From NCBI RefSeq assembly GCF_022807975.1, contig NZ_CP094358.1, forward strand, positions 1,488,001-1,552,000: a stretch of DNA of 64,000 nt, written 5' to 3'. This DNA comes from Abyssalbus ytuae (GTDB lineage: Bacteria > Bacteroidota > Bacteroidia > Flavobacteriales > Flavobacteriaceae). Shown piece by piece: positions 9,233-15,161 of this stretch. The translations under genes and the position numbers were made by a program. Numbering within the stretch: position 1 is the stretch's first letter; every line of letters begins with the position of its first letter. A model generated the notes under the pieces. It made no database searches. It saw only the letters and a list, made by a program, of their open reading frames with translations, and was not told where the DNA came from.

Positions 9233-10753
9233 TTAACTAAGAGTATTCATTTTCAATAATTCTTCCAGATAATCCCTTGAGTTAGACAACCGGGGGACTT
9301 TATGCTGCCCTCCCAATTTATCATTTATTTTTAACCAGTCATAAAACAGGTCTTTTCTGGCTATGTTAAGCCTAATCGGATTAAGGGTAACATTCTTATA
9401 TCGCTTAGCTTCATAATCAGAATTAAGGGTTTTTAAAGAGGTATCTAACAATTCTGTAAACTTTTGAATGCTTTCAGGCTTTCTTCTAAACTCAATAAGC
9501 CATTCATGAGCTCCCTTTTCTTTACCCTTCATAAAAACAGGTGCCACAGTATAATCAACTATTTCGGCGTTGGTATCTTTGCAAGCAACTTTTAAAGCCT
9601 CCTCAGCATTTTCAATTATTAATTCTTCACCAAAAACATTAATATAATGTTTGGTACGTCCGGTAACTTTTACCCTGTAGGGATTTGTGGAAGTAAACCT
9701 TACAGTATCACCAATCAGGTAACGCCATAATCCGGCATTTGTAGTGATAACCATAGCATAATTCTTATCTTTTTCTACTTCCCATAATGGTATTATTTTT
9801 TCCTGTGGAGTTTTATAAACATCCATAGGTATAAACTCATAAAAAATACCATAATCCAGCATCAACAATAATTCATCGGAATCATTACGGTCCTGAATAG
9901 CAAAAAAGCCTTCGGAAGCATTATAGATTTCGTAATATTTAAAATTATTTCTGGGCAAAAGTTTCTGGTATTGTTCCCTGTACGGATTAAAGCTTACTCC
10001 ACCATGAAAGTAAACTTCCAGGTTTTCCCAGATTTCAAACAAATTTCCTTTACCTGTTTTCTCTAAAACGCGATTAAGCAAAACCAGCATCCATGACGGC
10101 ACACCTGCTAAACTGGTAACATCTTCCTGTATGGTTTCGTTTACTATAGCTTCCAGTTTTGTTTCCCACTCACTCATAAGCGAAACTTTATGACTGGGTG
10201 TACTGCTCATTTCGGCCCAAAAGGGTAAATTATCAATTATAATTGCTGACAGATCTCCAAAAAAAGTATTGTTGTTTTCATATAATTCTTTACTCCCTCC
10301 TAACCTTAAGCTCTTACCGGTAAATAATTTTGAATCTTCATTATTATTAAAATAAAGGGAAAGCATGTCTTTGCCTGCTTTAAAGTGACAATCTTCCAGG
10401 GCTTCATCACTTACAGGTATAAATTTACTTTTTGCGTTGGTAGTACCACTGCTCTTTGCAAACCACCGTATGGGTGTGGGCCAGAAAATATTATGTTCCC
10501 CTTGCCTGCTCCTGGTTATCATCGGCTCTATATCTTCATATCTGCTCACCGGAACCCTTTCGGCAAAAGCTTCATATTTGTTTACAGATTCAAAATCGTA
10601 TTTTCTCCCTATTTCTGTATTTTCAGCTATTGATATTAACTGATGTAACACTTCGTACTGGACTTCGGACGGATATTTTAAGAATAATTCTATTTGATGG
10701 TAGCGCTTTTTAAGCAACCATGAAGCAACAGAATTAAAAAGCGGAATTGGCAT
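9233..10753 (-). CDS. GH3 auxin-responsive promoter family protein (acyl-adenylate ligase fold)
   Basis: 506 aa from the ATG at 10753 (MPIPLFNSVASWLLKKRYHQ). An upstream ATG at 10786 would add 11 hydrophobic residues that do not look native. It contains the adenylate-binding motif SSGTTNAKSKFIP and GLWRYLIGDTVRF of the GH3/ANL fold. Plant GH3 enzymes conjugate amino acids to jasmonate or auxin. Bacterial homologues are common in Bacteroidota and their substrates are unknown. It is divergent from DUF2797 with only 45 nt between starts. Confidence 0.9.
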   Translation of the reverse strand: MPIPLFNSVASWLLKKRYHQIELFLKYPSEVQYEVLHQLISIAENTEIGRKYDFESVNKYEAFAERVPVSRYEDIEPMITRSRQGEHNIFWPTPIRWFAKSSGTTNAKSKFIPVSDEALEDCHFKAGKDMLSLYFNNNEDSKLFTGKSLRLGGSKELYENNNTFFGDLSAIIIDNLPFWAEMSSTPSHKVSLMSEWETKLEAIVNETIQEDVTSLAGVPSWMLVLLNRVLEKTGKGNLFEIWENLEVYFHGGVSFNPYREQYQKLLPRNNFKYYEIYNASEGFFAIQDRNDSDELLLMLDYGIFYEFIPMDVYKTPQEKIIPLWEVEKDKNYAMVITTNAGLWRYLIGDTVRFTSTNPYRVKVTGRTKHYINVFGEELIIENAEEALKVACKDTNAEIVDYTVAPVFMKGKEKGAHEWLIEFRRKPESIQKFTELLDTSLKTLNSDYEAKRYKNVTLNPIRLNIARKDLFYDWLKINDKLGGQHKVPRLSNSRDYLEELLKMNTLS

Positions 10754-10761
10754 TTTTGAAC

Positions 10762-10769
10762 TATCTTTA
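10762..10769 (+). promoter_or_regulatory. Candidate -7 element for DUF2797 gene
   Basis: TATCTTTA in the 45-nt divergent spacer is 7/8 to the TAnnTTTG consensus, 29 nt before the plus-strand start. No -33 partner outside the GH3 coding region is evident. Confidence 0.25.
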
Positions 10770-10798
10770 AGCAATAAAAATAGCAAAAATCTTTTATC

Positions 10799-11602
10799 AT
10801 GTATACGGGTGTTTTAACAAAAATGAAAACTGAGTTTACAAACCCAATAAATTACTTTTTAATTTTTGAAAATGACTTCTTAAATATCAATCAATTATTG
10901 GACAGGAAAATAAAAATAAGCTTTATAAAGTATGAATGCTTAAACTGCCATTTAGACAAGCCTATTTACAGGCAGGGGTTTTGCAAGGAATGCTTTTTTG
11001 AAACCCCAAGAGCCGGCGACTGGGTTATGCGCCCGGAATTGAGCAAAGCTCATTTGGGAGAAGAAGACCGCGATCTCGAATTTGAAAAAGAAATGCAATT
11101 ACAGCCGCATATAGTCTATTTGGCAAACTCCAGCGATGTAAAAGTGGGTGTAACCAGAAAAGCCCAGATACCTACCCGTTGGATAGACCAGGGTGCCCAC
11201 GAAGCTATAGAAATTGTAGAAGTTCCTAACCGCTACCTGGCCGGAATAGCAGAAGTCGCTTTAAAAAATCATGTATCTGATAAAACAAACTGGAGAAAAA
11301 TGGTCACAAATAAAATAGTTGATGTAGACCTGGAAGCCGAAAAAGAAAGATTAGCCCCTTATATCCCCGAAGAAGTAAAGCCTTATTTTATTCAAAGTAA
11401 ATCTAAAGAAATAAACCTGTCATTTCCTGTTTTACAATTTCCCGATAAAATAAAAAGCCTCAATCTTGATAAAACCCATGAATATGAAGGGGTTTTAAAG
11501 GGAATAAAAGGGCAATATTTAATTTTTGAAGATGGTACGGTTTTTAATGTCAGAGGTAGTGAAGGGTATGTGGTTAAATTAATTATTAACCTAAATATTT
11601 AA
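10799..11602 (+). CDS. DUF2797 domain-containing protein
   Basis: 267 aa. It has a four-Cys zinc-ribbon-like module (YECLNCHLDKPIYRQGFCKECFFE, about residues 40-65) and the family segment VKVGVTRKAQIPTRWIDQGA, which resembles a GIY-YIG-like core. Its function is unknown. The last 17 nt overlap the 3' end of the convergent sigma-factor gene, so the two transcripts must overlap. The Cys spacing suggests a metal site. Confidence 0.88.
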   Translation: MYTGVLTKMKTEFTNPINYFLIFENDFLNINQLLDRKIKISFIKYECLNCHLDKPIYRQGFCKECFFETPRAGDWVMRPELSKAHLGEEDRDLEFEKEMQLQPHIVYLANSSDVKVGVTRKAQIPTRWIDQGAHEAIEIVEVPNRYLAGIAEVALKNHVSDKTNWRKMVTNKIVDVDLEAEKERLAPYIPEEVKPYFIQSKSKEINLSFPVLQFPDKIKSLNLDKTHEYEGVLKGIKGQYLIFEDGTVFNVRGSEGYVVKLIINLNI

Positions 11603-12449
11603 TTAAAACATTTGAACGACCCGATTTTTTTAATTTTAATAAAGCTGTTGCTTTTATTTGTCGTACCCGCTCCCTTGTGAGAGTCATAGAAGCTCCTATT
11701 TCCTCAAGGGTCATTTGATTATTATTATCCAGCCCAAAGAATAATTTAATAATATCAGATTCACGTTGGGTAAGAGTATTTAAAACAATATTTATTTCAT
11801 CTTTAAGGGAATCGCCCATTAAATCATCATCGGGTTCAGGAACATTATTGGATTTTATCAGGTCATAAAAATTTAACTCCTCTCCTTTTTTTAAAGGAGC
11901 ATCTAAGGACATTTGCCTGCCGGCATTTTTCATGCATAGTTTTATTTCAGTAATTGAAATTTCTACAATTTCTGATATTTCATCAGCTGAGGGTAATCTT
12001 TGATAAGTCTGCTCTAAAAATGCCGAAGCTTTACTAATTTTGTTAAGAGCACTTATTTTATTTAAAGGCAATCGCACAATTCTGGATTGTTCTGCTATTG
12101 CCTGCAAAATAGATTGTCTTATCCACCATACGGCATAAGAAATAAATTTAAAACCTCTGCTCTCATCAAATCTGCTTGCTGCCCTTACTAATCCAACATT
12201 CCCTTCGTTAATAAGGTCTGGGAGAGTTAATCCCTGGCTTTGATATTGTTTTGCAACAGAAACTACAAATCGTAAATTGGCACTAATGAGTTTTTCCAGC
12301 GCTAATTGGTCTCCTTTTCTTATCCTTATTGCTAACTCCACTTCCTCCTCTTCAGTAACCAGATCAATTTTACCTATTTCCTGAAGATATTTATCTAATG
12401 AAACATTTTCTCTATTGGTTATTTGTTTTACTATTTTGAGCTGTCTCAT
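11586..12449 (-). CDS. RNA polymerase sigma factor, RpoD/SigA-family paralogue
   Basis: 287 aa, the same length as the Bacteroidota primary sigma factor. It has region 1.2 (SLDKYLQEIGKIDLVTEEEE), region 2 (LRFVVSVAKQYQSQGLTLPD; ISYAVWWIRQSI), region 3, and region 4.2 (TLEEIGASMTLTRERVRQIK). Several normally invariant positions differ from the housekeeping RpoD as I know it. Examples are the stretch after the region 4.2 helix (ATALLKLKKSGRSNVLIKYLG) and the region 3 linker. It is therefore probably a second, specialised copy rather than the primary sigma. It is the last gene after S21 and NYN/LOTUS genes. Confidence 0.88.
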   Translation of the reverse strand: MRQLKIVKQITNRENVSLDKYLQEIGKIDLVTEEEEVELAIRIRKGDQLALEKLISANLRFVVSVAKQYQSQGLTLPDLINEGNVGLVRAASRFDESRGFKFISYAVWWIRQSILQAIAEQSRIVRLPLNKISALNKISKASAFLEQTYQRLPSADEISEIVEISITEIKLCMKNAGRQMSLDAPLKKGEELNFYDLIKSNNVPEPDDDLMGDSLKDEINIVLNTLTQRESDIIKLFFGLDNNNQMTLEEIGASMTLTRERVRQIKATALLKLKKSGRSNVLIKYLG

Positions 12450-12469
12450 TTTAAATATATTAGATAGTA

Positions 12470-13210
12470 CTAATTTTTTATTCTCACATAAATAAGGTTT
12501 CGGTTGCGTCCGGTATTATTGCGCTGTTCTATTTCAAATTTATTGATAGAATTTATTAAAGGTGTTAATTTTTGAAACCCATAATTTCTCGAATCAAAAT
12601 TGGGTTGCTTCTTTTGAAGTAATGTTCCTACTTCTCCTAAAAAGGCCCAACCATCCTCATCTTCTAGATCGGATATAGTGGATGATATTAACTTAACTAC
12701 TGTGGGTGTTATCTTATCTACTTTGGTGTGCTCTTTTGGTTTATTATCAAATTTGTTATCTAATTCCTCAGGTTCTTTCCTGAGAATTTCTATATAAATA
12801 AACCTATCACACGAAACGATAAAAGGATTGGGGGTTTTCTTCTCTCCAATCCCATAAACTATCATACCAGCCTCTCTAAGACGTATAGCTAATCTTGTAA
12901 AATCACTATCGCTTGAAACCAGACAAAAACCTGTGACCTTCCCTGAATATAAAATATCCATGGCATCAATAATCATGGCTGAATCTGTAGCATTTTTGCC
13001 TGTGGTGTATCCGTATTGTTGTATGGGTGTTATGGCGTTTTCAAGAAGAACTTTTTTCCATTTTATCAGACTTGGTTTTGTCCAATCGCCATAAATCCTT
13101 TTAATAGTTGGATTGCCATATTTAGCAACCTCCTCCAGCAGTTCTTTTACATATTGAGAAGGGATATTGTCTCCATCAATAAGCACTGCTAAACTTAAGT
13201 CAGGTTTCAT
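12470..13210 (-). CDS. NYN-domain protein with C-terminal LOTUS/OST-HTH domain
   Basis: 246 aa. The NYN (PIN-like) nuclease core covers about residues 1-150, with acidic residues in VLIDGDNIP, KNATDSAMIIDAMDI and LVSSDSDFTRLA, the LabA/DUF88-type arrangement. A winged-helix LOTUS/OST-HTH-like domain follows at about residues 170-245 (SSTISDLEDEDGWAFLGEVG). NYN domains are predicted metal-dependent RNases and LOTUS domains bind RNA, so an RNA-processing role is likely. It starts 2 nt after the S21 paralogue stop and ends 20 nt before the sigma-factor start, so the three form an operon. Confidence 0.87.
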   Translation of the reverse strand: MKPDLSLAVLIDGDNIPSQYVKELLEEVAKYGNPTIKRIYGDWTKPSLIKWKKVLLENAITPIQQYGYTTGKNATDSAMIIDAMDILYSGKVTGFCLVSSDSDFTRLAIRLREAGMIVYGIGEKKTPNPFIVSCDRFIYIEILRKEPEELDNKFDNKPKEHTKVDKITPTVVKLISSTISDLEDEDGWAFLGEVGTLLQKKQPNFDSRNYGFQKLTPLINSINKFEIEQRNNTGRNRNLIYVRIKN

Positions 13211-13212
13211 TA

Positions 13213-13407
13213 TTATTCTTCCTGAAGCCTCTTGTATTCTTCTTTGTAAACAGCTTTTGCAATTTCTTCCCTTCTTTGTACAGACTTTTTGGTAAAATGC
13301 TGATTGCTTCTTAGGTTTTGCATAAGTTTGGTTTTCTTATGCTTACTTCTATATCGCTTAAGGGCTCTGTCTATATTTTCTCCTTCTTTTACTGGTATTA
13401 TTAGCAT
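13213..13407 (-). CDS. rpsU: 30S ribosomal protein S21 (bS21), likely paralogue
   Basis: 64 aa, the normal length, with the S21 N-terminus MLIIPVKEGENIDRALKRY and basic helices. Its sequence differs from the usual flavobacterial bS21 in the middle and C-terminus. The leader TTTTTAATATTTTATTT before the ATG has no AGGAGG-type Shine-Dalgarno. Tyr54, at the position described as contacting the anti-Shine-Dalgarno in Bacteroidota ribosomes, is kept. It is the first gene of the S21-NYN/LOTUS-sigma operon, downstream of the csp terminator. Confidence 0.9.
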   Translation of the reverse strand: MLIIPVKEGENIDRALKRYRSKHKKTKLMQNLRSNQHFTKKSVQRREEIAKAVYKEEYKRLQEE

Positions 13408-13420
13408 AAATAAAATATTA

Positions 13421-13456
13421 AAAATTAAAAAGCCACTTACCTTCGGTAAATGGCTT
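13421..13456 (-). terminator. Intrinsic terminator after csp
   Basis: On the minus strand a 12-bp stem (AAGCCATTTACC with GGTAAGTGGCTT, one wobble) with a short GAA loop is followed by TTTTTAATTTTTAAT. It lies between the cold-shock gene and the S21 paralogue, so S21 expression needs read-through or its own promoter. Confidence 0.85.
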
Positions 13457-13472
13457 ATAAATTATAAAAAAA

Positions 13473-13667
13473 TTAATCAATAATTTCTACGTTTACGGCA
13501 TTCATTCCTTTTTTGCCTCTCTCGGTCTCAAATCGCACTTTATCATTTTCGTTGATATTGTCAATTAAACCACTTTCGTGTACAAAGATATCTTCATTGC
13601 TATCTTTAATTGTGATGAATCCAAATCCTTTGGTTCTGTTAAAGAACTTAACTGTTCCTTCTTGCAT
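13473..13667 (-). CDS. Cold-shock domain protein (CspA family)
   Basis: 64 aa, a single cold-shock domain. The RNP-1-like motif KGFGFITI and the RNP-2-like motif DIFVHES are both present. It binds single-stranded RNA/DNA and acts as an RNA chaperone. A 271-nt AT-rich gap upstream could hold a structured 5' leader, as in many csp genes, but I see no clear structure there. A strong terminator follows the stop. Confidence 0.95.
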   Translation of the reverse strand: MQEGTVKFFNRTKGFGFITIKDSNEDIFVHESGLIDNINENDKVRFETERGKKGMNAVNVEIID

Positions 13668-13938
13668 TGTATTAAATTTAAAATGTTTACTATTAAAATC
13701 ATAACTTAAATGATATACTTAACTTTTTAAAAAAAGAAAATATAAAAGATTACAATCTATTACATACCATTCATTATGTATGCATCAGCAGATGATCAAA
13801 AAAATAGGAATAAATTAAACGGTAGGAATAAAGAATTTCTAAAGTAGTTGATACCTAATTGCTAACTGCGTGCAAAGTAACAGTTTTATTTTGAAAAAAT
13901 CTATTTATTTGGTATTTATTTAAAAAAACAAGGGGTTA

Positions 13939-14145
13939 TTATCTATGGCCATTGGGCCGACGATCTAAATCTATTAATCCATTAGGATTGGATTTATAAT
14001 TTTTTACCCGCTCATTAACTATATTTTCGTGCGCCCCCTTCTGATCATTTTTTAAATCAAATAATTTTTCAATAATTTCTTCTTCATTAACTGATAATAT
14101 CCATTTTATCAGTTCTTTTTTCTTAATATCCAGCGTTGTATCCAT
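13939..14145 (-). CDS. Small antitoxin-like protein of unknown function
   Basis: 68 aa, highly charged. The opening MDTTLDIKKKELIKWILSVN resembles the N-terminus of small flavobacterial antitoxin-like proteins found upstream of RelE/ParE toxins. No toxin gene follows: the 271 nt downstream are non-coding. It could be an orphan antitoxin or a degenerate one. A TAAATTTG -7-like element lies at 14157-14150, immediately upstream, which would make the transcript almost leaderless. Confidence 0.55.
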   Translation of the reverse strand: MDTTLDIKKKELIKWILSVNEEEIIEKLFDLKNDQKGAHENIVNERVKNYKSNPNGLIDLDRRPNGHR

Positions 14146-14216
14146 GTGTCAAATTTAATTTATCTCATTCTATTAGATGTTTTCAAAAAAAATGAAGATT
14201 GACACAAAAGAAGAAA

Positions 14217-15161
14217 TTAATCACAGGTTTCTATAAATAATGAACTGTTATTTGTTTCAAAATTATCTGTACTTACCTTTTCTTTCAGCTTTTTATATTC
14301 ATATATTTTAGAAAAATCATCATATTTCATACTACTTTCTCCACCTTTATTTGCCTTTGGAATAGCTTGTGTATCAATAAAAATATTATTCTTTTTATCA
14401 TACTCATAATATGCAGGTAAATTCCCTTCAAATAAATTATATGATTTGTTAACATATATTTTTTGAACATCGTTAAATACCTGTGATATGTATTGCTTTA
14501 AAAACAGCATGTCTTCACTGTTTTCGTCCAAATCTCTTTTTACCGTTGTTTTTCCGTCTTCAAAAGTTAACATCCCCTCATTAAAAACTGCTGTCATGGT
14601 TTTTAACGAATGTAAATATGTATGCGAATTGTTTATTACTATAAAATCATTATAACCAGCATTATTATTAAAAACCCTGACCTCATTTTTATCCGGATAA
14701 TAAATTTTAAACATAAATATAAGCTGTTCCGGCACCCTCTTTAAATTATAAACGTAAGGATAGGCAAAACAGTTTGCATCTTCATTAAATACACGGTTTA
14801 ATTTTATCCAAGGTTCATCTTTTTGATGAAAACCGGCATATACATCTCCGTTTTCAAAATTTTCAAATGAAACCATAGCTGATTTTTTTAACTCTCTGTT
14901 TGTTCTGCCATAAAGCTCAAAAATGGGTTTCGAAAAAGGAGCAAACTCAATTCTGCCATCTTTTAAGAATTTCCACTTTCCAACTTGTATGCCTCCAAAA
15001 TAAGCAATGGCGTATGTACCCTGTTCCATTATAATTAACGAACTTCCTCCCTCAGGGGAAGAACTTCCTAAAGAATATTGTCCTGTTATATTTTGTTCAT
15101 TAATTTGTCCCATACTTACTTTAACAAATAATACCAGTACCAATAAAAATTTCTGTTTCAT
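14217..15161 (-). CDS. Secreted protein of unknown function
   Basis: 314 aa with a clear Sec signal peptide (MKQKFLLVLVLFVKVSMGQ, cleavage near Gly-Gln). The mature part has beta-rich stretches (GKWKFLKDGRIEFAPFSKP) but no family that I recognise. It has its own upstream space of 175 nt and no obvious partner gene. Base composition is like its neighbours. Confidence 0.75.
   Translation of the reverse strand: MKQKFLLVLVLFVKVSMGQINEQNITGQYSLGSSSPEGGSSLIIMEQGTYAIAYFGGIQVGKWKFLKDGRIEFAPFSKPIFELYGRTNRELKKSAMVSFENFENGDVYAGFHQKDEPWIKLNRVFNEDANCFAYPYVYNLKRVPEQLIFMFKIYYPDKNEVRVFNNNAGYNDFIVINNSHTYLHSLKTMTAVFNEGMLTFEDGKTTVKRDLDENSEDMLFLKQYISQVFNDVQKIYVNKSYNLFEGNLPAYYEYDKKNNIFIDTQAIPKANKGGESSMKYDDFSKIYEYKKLKEKVSTDNFETNNSSLFIETCD

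Follow-up and report, generated by a model that had tools for sequence, protein, structure and literature searches.

Why would a bacterium maintain a second gene for ribosomal protein bS21 next to genes for a predicted ribonuclease and a sigma factor? The question is raised by a locus in a 64,000-nucleotide stretch of the chromosome of Abyssalbus ytuae (Flavobacteriaceae; NZ_CP094358.1, positions 1,488,001 to 1,552,000), hereafter referred to as the window. In this locus, a cold-shock gene (csp) is followed by rpsU2, which encodes a paralogue of bS21 (S21), by a gene encoding a NYN-LOTUS protein, and by a gene for an RpoD-derived sigma factor. Gene order and phylogeny identify this set as a real, conserved cassette of Flavobacteriaceae, one that occurs in marine relatives of A. 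ytuae and there, too, often follows a cold-shock gene. Its strongest mechanistic feature, absent from a preliminary description of the same DNA, is the loss from rpsU2, as read from its start region, of the Shine-Dalgarno (SD) signal used for bS21 feedback. We propose that the cassette may be a switch, coupled to csp and possibly induced by cold, that changes how translation and transcription are initiated and operates outside the bS21 feedback loop, a reading that we find plausible while stopping just short of calling it probable.

The locus is composed of paralogues with housekeeping counterparts

The preliminary description had reported an S21 paralogue, a NYN/LOTUS gene, and a sigma-70 paralogue, with a cold-shock gene just upstream behind a terminator. 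The open reading frames and Pfam domains agree with this arrangement (Table 1), including gaps of 2 nucleotides (nt) between rpsU2 and the NYN gene and of 20 nt between the NYN and sigma genes, and a gene with a cold-shock domain is indeed found upstream, separated by a 12-pair hairpin with a T tail. The product of rpsU2 matched Ribosomal_S21 with a score of 54.4 bits, above the cut-off of 27, and also matched TIGR00030. Since csp lies directly upstream of the S21 gene on the same strand, the two genes form a csp-rpsU pair. The hairpin ends 22 nt before the ATG of rpsU2. The scanned 5-kb region contained four terminator-like sites, compared with 2.3 (sd 1.6) in shuffled sequences. At the other end of the cassette, the sigma gene and the DUF2797 gene, which converge, have 17 nt in common.

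Table 1. Features of the cassette locus, in window coordinates.
Feature	Coordinates	Strand	Basis or remark
csp, cold-shock protein, 64 aa	13473-13667	minus	CSD 3e-18
Intrinsic-terminator-like hairpin between csp and rpsU2	13456-13430	minus	12 pairs, T tail
rpsU2, bS21 paralogue, 64 aa	13213-13407	minus	Pfam Ribosomal_S21 (PF01165) 9.8e-15
NYN-LOTUS gene, predicted ribonuclease, 246 aa	12470-13210	minus	NYN 2.9e-38, OST-HTH/LOTUS 1.5e-19
RpoD-derived alternative sigma factor, 287 aa	11586-12449	minus	Sigma70_r1_2, r2, r3, r4 (Pfam)
Promoter-like element GTTnCTTTG/A common to cassettes	13873-13881	minus	214 nt upstream of csp
Long leader (5' untranslated region) of csp-first transcript, predicted	13668-13872	minus	between motif and csp
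DUF2797 gene, convergent neighbour, outside cassette	10799-11602	plus	DUF2797 4.8e-92

The existence of separate primary copies of rpsU and rpoD had been set beforehand as a check, and both were found in the genome, which consists of one contig of 4.37 Mb. Two S21 genes were found, the canonical rpsU being located at C1:3361501, upstream of xerC. Three RpoD-like sigma genes were found: that of the window, the canonical rpoD (C1:3306505, between rpe and coaD; L004), and a third gene at C1:298108. The window genes are therefore paralogues. The canonical rpsU and rpoD do not belong to one operon. The window sigma factor is 65% identical to RpoD of the same genome and 61% identical to the third sigma factor. 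The second of the two CSP genes found encodes a product 51% identical to that of the window csp, and the NYN gene is present in a single copy.

The cassette is conserved in several genera

To locate relatives of the NYN-LOTUS protein, we scanned one genome per species (84,980 species) with peptide patterns of the window protein, which confine detection to sites where they match, and retained the best 80 of 105 relatives. The S21 gene was directly before the NYN gene in 15 of these 80 loci. The sigma gene was directly after NYN in 12 of the 15, one of them (L036) being split by a frameshift. The genera concerned include Robertkochia (no sigma gene beside NYN), Mangrovimonas, Seonamhaeicola, Aestuariivivens, Muricauda/Flagellimonas, and Croceivirga. 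The neighbourhood check, also set beforehand, thus established that the gene order is kept in relatives. The flanks of the 15 loci mostly differ from those of the window; some are common to the close relatives L034/L036, L032/L043, and L049/L053. A sample of 299 Flavobacteriaceae genomes contained a NYN homologue in 130 cases and, besides the window, a NYN gene adjoining an S21 paralogue in at least four (G121, G245, G176, and G251); the adjacency counts in this set (298-299 genomes) are lower bounds.

Three side observations concern the distribution. Muricauda sp. NBRC 101325 carries two full copies of the cassette on different contigs (L037 and L044). NYN-LOTUS relatives (72-77% identical) occur in metagenome-assembled genomes (MAGs) labelled Calditrichia, Caldithrix, Neomarinimicrobiota, and Thalassovita (L040, L048, L060, and L081), owing to transfer or mis-binning. 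In G194 and G009, the NYN gene that precedes an S21 paralogue does not belong to the cassette clade, so NYN and S21 have probably met more than once.

Phylogeny points to a single origin followed by erosion

All 19 cassette NYN sequences were placed on one side of a branch (support 100/99) with 39 other sequences on the opposite side, and a quick tree separated the same 19 from 88 rows (SH-aLRT 99). The 18 S21-associated sigma factors were likewise separated from 18 RpoD and 13 rpoD2 sequences (98/99); following the addition of four sigma factors, from G026, G125, G158, and G244, the 22 sequences remained on one side of a branch (99/97). The phylogeny planned for the sigma factor thus confirmed that window-type sigmas branch apart from RpoD and rpoD2.

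The additional sequences originated from a sigma profile searched over 298 genomes, which gave 10 rows above the RpoD plateau. Six of the 10 adjoin an S21 paralogue (G251, G213, G121, G241, G000, and G194), and these six were themselves rows of the profile, hence no independent count. The four newly found sigma genes are not beside S21, and in their genomes the canonical S21 gene is the only one among the matches listed. Sigma factors of the same type in G176 and G120 do not exceed the plateau. In three of the four orphans, a decayed 3' end of NYN was detected directly upstream of the sigma gene (E 3.6e-6, 5e-6, and 9e-5); a weak trace is present at the same place in G244 (E 0.03). Several hundred bases around the decayed NYN ends are still alike between three genomes (L280, L281, and L283). 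In G241, a NYN fragment is kept between S21 and sigma. These remnants suggest that the orphan sigma genes result from loss from a former cassette, and the cassette seems to erode in place. The trees indicate that, most likely, NYN and sigma joined an S21 paralogue once, in Flavobacteriaceae.

The ratios of nonsynonymous to synonymous substitutions (dN/dS) indicate that the cassette genes are under purifying selection in the tested pairs. Values were 0.03-0.05 for NYN and 0.05-0.09 for in-register sigma pairs, all NYN and sigma pairs being Flagellimonas-type; the L037-L038 sigma value (0.33) was left out because an indel places the pair out of register. For S21, pairs with finite, non-zero dS gave 0.02-0.14, one further pair having no differences and another a saturated dS.

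Could three unrelated genes have come together by chance and been kept adjacent by common descent? The fact that S21 was not detected beside NYN in 65 of the 80 loci (L062 and L078 having less than 400 nt upstream of NYN) speaks for such a history. We regard it as very improbable in view of the flanks and of the eroded remnants: the cassette NYNs of several genera form a single clade although their flanks are for the most part not the same, and NYN remnants persist between or before their former partners. Also at odds with chance adjacency are the intact block found at different points of the same region in two close genomes and the S21 paralogues adjoined by sigmas of the rpoD2 group, both described below.

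rpsU2 lacks the Shine-Dalgarno signal of canonical rpsU

The SD energy was defined as that of pairing between the 22 nt preceding the start codon and the 16S tail, the sequence of which was assumed and not read from this genome. S21 counts leave out 26 short fetches of places also present in longer form, as well as nine duplicate loci. The energies of eight canonical rpsU genes (-21.3 to -23.3 kcal/mol) and of 45 paralogues (-9.8 to +2.6 kcal/mol) did not overlap. Within the A. ytuae genome, the values were -21.3 kcal/mol for canonical rpsU and +2.6 kcal/mol for rpsU2. An extended Shine-Dalgarno was present in all eight canonical genes examined and in none of the 45 paralogues examined; rpsU2 lacks the autoregulatory form of this signal found in Bacteroidota.

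Sequestration of the anti-Shine-Dalgarno by bS21 has been described for Bacteroidia, and bS21 of Flavobacterium johnsoniae is autoregulated via this SD, by ribosomes lacking bS21 (PMC9976891). The canonical rpsU of A. ytuae shares the extended SD of F. johnsoniae, whereas rpsU2 is without it. Replacement of Tyr54 by Ala in F. johnsoniae bS21 raises SD-dependent translation, and wild-type ribosomes initiate on rpsU with a strong temperature dependence, the activation energy being 42.9 kcal/mol versus 18.3 kcal/mol for a C-terminal truncation (PMC9976891). The taxa named with rpsU paralogues in the available portion of that study include no Bacteroidota.

Tyr54 is kept in 43 of the 45 S21 paralogues. 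Changes were observed at positions that are fixed in the eight canonical bS21 sequences, namely D to R or K at position 24 (44/45), T to Q at position 28 (31/45), P to K at position 41 (35/45), and D to R at position 60 (21/45). These data bear on a simpler explanation, according to which the csp-linked rpsU2 is a back-up supply that adds bS21 whenever SD-dependent synthesis of the canonical protein lags, as it might in the cold, leaving ribosome specificity unchanged, while NYN and sigma have separate roles and only the promoter in common. The conservation of Tyr54 and of most of the fold is in keeping with a back-up, as are the escape of rpsU2 from SD feedback, the csp-S21 pairs devoid of NYN and sigma genes (L140, L141, and L143), and the cspC-rpsU1 pair of Francisella, which may be viewed as a simple version (PMC9578407). 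Against a mere back-up are the changes shared by paralogues at positions 24, 28, 41, and 60, and the specific NYN and sigma clades that stay with rpsU2 across mostly unrelated flanks. We consider this explanation possible, but on the unlikely side.

The cassette encodes a predicted ribonuclease and an alternative sigma factor

The NYN-LOTUS protein combines a NYN fold, an acidic site, and a LOTUS domain, and is predicted to be a ribonuclease. The best match of its predicted model (mean pLDDT 77) was the NYN domain of MARF1 (E 4e-6, TM 0.72 for the target), which is an endoribonuclease (PMC6294520). The model also matched bacterial LOTUS structures, e.g. 2kpm. The acidic residues D12, D14, D76, D82, D101, and D103 were invariant in 35 rows.

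The window sigma factor contains regions 1.2, 2, 3, and 4 and is distinct from the primary factor, features that assign its sequence to the RpoD-like alternative (group 2) factors. The region 2.4 motif KFISYAVWWIRQ was invariant in 15 rows. The helix of region 4.2 carries a TRER motif whose Arg has given way to A, T, P, S, or K in 8 of the 15; the window protein keeps this Arg. Branch lengths indicate that the cassette sigma evolves much faster than RpoD.

The cassettes share a promoter-like motif and a long leader

The motif GTTnCTTT(G/A) was present at -320 to -150 of the first gene in 21 of 24 cassette or csp-S21 loci, compared with 5 of 24 when the region was read backwards, a post hoc comparison since the motif was derived from the data in which it is counted. 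The three loci without it are L033, L148, and L030, where a single base of the motif differs. None of 21 other S21 paralogues had the motif in the same range (in L146 it is just outside, at -150, and in L164 it is at -48). The motif was present whether csp or S21 is the first gene, and absent within 420 nt of nine other csp genes that are unlinked to the arrangement or are second copies. We consider this shared, promoter-like motif as a candidate promoter of the cassettes. In the eight canonical rpsU genes, TAnnTTTG starts at -38 to -46. The strict Bacteroidota promoter pattern was not found within 700 nt upstream of S21 in the window and was found in 3 of 28 listed loci. Consensus sigma-70 promoters were fewer in the window region (16) than in shuffled sequences (23.1).

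It is possible to align the leaders of cassettes that begin with csp with those of cassettes that begin with S21, and by eye their conservation beyond the motif is weak. Also by eye, L043, a locus without csp, has a leader similar to the one upstream of csp in L032; L034, again without csp, retains both leader and hairpin. The csp gene directly precedes S21 in 13 distinct loci. A strong hairpin, differing in sequence between loci, was observed in 10 of these 13 gaps, an observation made without a shuffle control; in L144 its T run is broken. In most gaps the space between hairpin and ATG would hardly accommodate a promoter, an exception being L140, where TAnnTTTG is present.

Spread of the cassette in relatives and genes adjoining it

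In Flagellimonas-type genomes, the cassette and its leader form a block of approximately 2.2-2.4 kb; the flanks are unrelated, and an 18-bp repeat marks the end of the block. In L049 (5268-7660) and L053 (5272-7660), the block is located between copies of the repeat, which is found at the junctions, and the intact block occupies two different points of a collinear region that is otherwise 93-96% identical. The repeat is present in 11-27 copies per genome in four Flagellimonas-type genomes (control 0). It is absent from the A. ytuae genome. These findings bear on the spread of the cassette in relatives, not on the window copy.

The 18-bp sites of Flagellimonas-type genomes also form integron-like arrays behind a serine recombinase (PF00239), not a tyrosine integrase (L315, G325:C2:895500-915000; L317, G323:C1:13000-32900; also L343, L345, L349, and L351). 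In two genomes, one site precedes the recombinase gene and 14 or 15 follow in the opposite orientation. Twelve of the 13 intervals between the 14 sites of L315 contain exactly one open reading frame (at least 60 aa), all on the recombinase strand. The recombinase was detected in 15 of 397 Flavobacteriaceae genomes at E 1e-40. At 12 recombinase loci, the 43 downstream sites had one orientation, and upstream sites were opposite in five cases and the same in two (both in L347); these sites were called with up to 3 mismatches and no chance control, so some may be chance, one locus is siteless, and L342 repeats part of L317.

Another possibility is an accessory or defence cassette, a mobile unit protecting translation and transcription in phage attack, for example by replacing a phage-targeted bS21 or sigma factor. 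Such a role would fit the repeats of serine-recombinase arrays that border the unit at different places, its patchy distribution, and the frequent presence of bS21 genes in phage-type contigs (96 relatives found; PMC9723584). We nevertheless judge it improbable, since NYN was not found in viral contigs, none of the best 80 of 96 viral S21 loci had NYN, sigma, or csp nearby, and the csp leader is suggestive of temperature or RNA stress. PADLOC had no family matched by NYN or S21; the sigma factor matched MzaA and the cold-shock protein CSD_V, both through common domains. Membership in a defence system was rejected because the PADLOC matches are limited to such domains, and an origin from phage, or the existence of phage copies, was rejected because NYN, sigma, and csp are missing from the surroundings of the best 80 of 96 viral S21 loci and viral contigs yielded no NYN. 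One locus of the viral set, L201, contains xerC together with hpf and probably represents host DNA.

In six genomes (G120, G121, G153, G169, G176, and G028), rpoD2, whose product is 78-83% identical to RpoD, is directly before an S21 paralogue (L156, L160, L165, L167, L187, and L286). This pair is beside DUF2797 and GH3 genes in four of the six genomes; G028 is without them. The window cassette also adjoins DUF2797 and GH3 genes (9233-11602), and an S21 paralogue may therefore have stood there first. The same two genes occur beside S21 paralogues with or without NYN and sigma in L140, L142, L143, L145, L146, L164, L165, L167, and L168.

A model for the function of the cassette

The proposed switch would follow the order of the cassette: promoter-like motif, leader of about 200 nt, csp, terminator, rpsU2, nyn-lotus, and sigma. 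The csp leader would respond to a signal, most likely cold, with increased expression of csp; either the cold-shock protein or the low temperature as such would let RNA polymerase read through the terminator. Because the rpsU2 mRNA is without a Shine-Dalgarno, its product, bS21-2, would be made by ordinary, bS21-replete ribosomes and would then enter 30S subunits. As bS21-2 keeps Tyr54, the anti-Shine-Dalgarno would probably still be hidden, lowering translation of the feedback-controlled canonical rpsU, so that bS21-2 takes over. The sigma factor would redirect part of the RNA polymerase and the NYN-LOTUS protein would remove selected RNAs. Transcription initiation and translation initiation would thereby change together. 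Cold is our best guess for the signal because of the presence of csp, the analogy with cspC-rpsU1 of Francisella, and the steep slowing in the cold of SD-dependent initiation by replete F. johnsoniae ribosomes (PMC9976891). The most complete form of the model, a two-level switch in which read-through depends on csp, bS21-2 shuts down the feedback-controlled canonical rpsU and thereby replaces canonical bS21 among the ribosomes, sigma re-aims RNA polymerase, and NYN-LOTUS clears old messages, is conceivable but doubtful.

Several observations weigh against the proposed switch. The first concern its parts. The sigma gene is absent beside NYN in the Robertkochia loci and in G245, indicating that sigma is not needed for the S21-NYN association, and, as mentioned above, four sigmas of the cassette type stand apart from S21 and six S21-linked ones cannot be counted independently of their profile. 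The S21 tree, built on 64 columns, which are too few, does not resolve the cassette S21s as a clade. The others concern control. The SD energies depend on the assumed 16S tail. Strong SD-start patterns numbered 24 in the A. ytuae genome versus 32 for a backward-pattern control; across 12 genomes, some were above the control (G007, 34 versus 15) and some below. A hidden Shine-Dalgarno regulon was rejected for lack of an excess over this control in A. ytuae. TAnnTTTG is also found near the start in cassette L157 (-36) and in a few other paralogues. Rfam gave no match in window positions 10500-14500, so the leader is without a recognised RNA family. No csp is found directly before rpsU2 in 11 of the 24 cassette or csp-S21 loci, and the hairpin is weak in two and missing in one of the 13 csp-S21 gaps. 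Finally, CspB and CspD of Bacillus subtilis favoured termination over antitermination at the sites tested (PMC8307031), and read-through mediated by a cold-shock protein is therefore not a given.

The preliminary description had suggested a specialised expression module. This suggestion is partly supported, by the housekeeping copies, the kept gene order, the NYN and sigma clades, purifying selection, and the shared motif and leader. Its stress component would derive from the link with csp.

Relation to known systems and significance

Further pairs of csp or RNA-binding-protein genes with S21 genes exist in alpha-proteobacteria and cyanobacteria. No description of the rpsU-NYN-sigma combination was found in the open-access literature, subscription journals being mostly outside the search. 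The earlier claim of novelty holds to that extent and is tempered by two systems that resemble parts of the cassette, the rpsU-dnaG-rpoD operon of Escherichia coli and the cspC-rpsU1 pair of Francisella (PMC9578407). Like the cassette, the E. coli operon has rpsU first, a gene for a nucleic-acid enzyme in the middle, and a sigma-70 gene last, and it couples translation and transcription initiation; the Francisella rpsU2 operon can be placed alongside this macromolecular synthesis operon (PMC9578407). Unlike the E. coli operon, which combines dnaG, the primary sigma gene, and rpsU, the cassette is made of paralogues with housekeeping copies elsewhere, has NYN-LOTUS instead of primase, and is led by csp. 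The Francisella cspC-rpsU1 pair resembles the cassette in that the rpsU paralogue directly follows a cold-shock gene, and Francisella ribosomes are heterogeneous for bS21; in contrast to the cassette, no NYN or sigma gene is named there in the available portions of the report (PMC9578407).

Bacterial proteins combining an LK-nuclease (DUF88/NYN) with OST-HTH have the same domain pair as NYN-LOTUS (PMC2848206). Their genes are reported to have no conserved neighbourhoods with other known RNA-processing systems and are called standalone (PMC2848206). The cassette clade differs from them by its conserved neighbourhood with S21 and sigma. The cassette thus gives a functional context to one clade of bacterial NYN-LOTUS proteins, which were described in 2010 as lacking conserved links with other RNA-processing systems.

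In Bacteroidota, ribosomes hide the anti-Shine-Dalgarno with bS21, and the level of bS21 is set by a feedback that reads this state. With its conserved, SD-free second bS21, tied to a cold-shock protein, a predicted RNase, and a sigma factor, the cassette amounts to a natural experiment, both for this feedback and for the study of specialised ribosomes. If the two-level switch were true, a single operon would bring the cell into another initiation state, in transcription as well as in translation.

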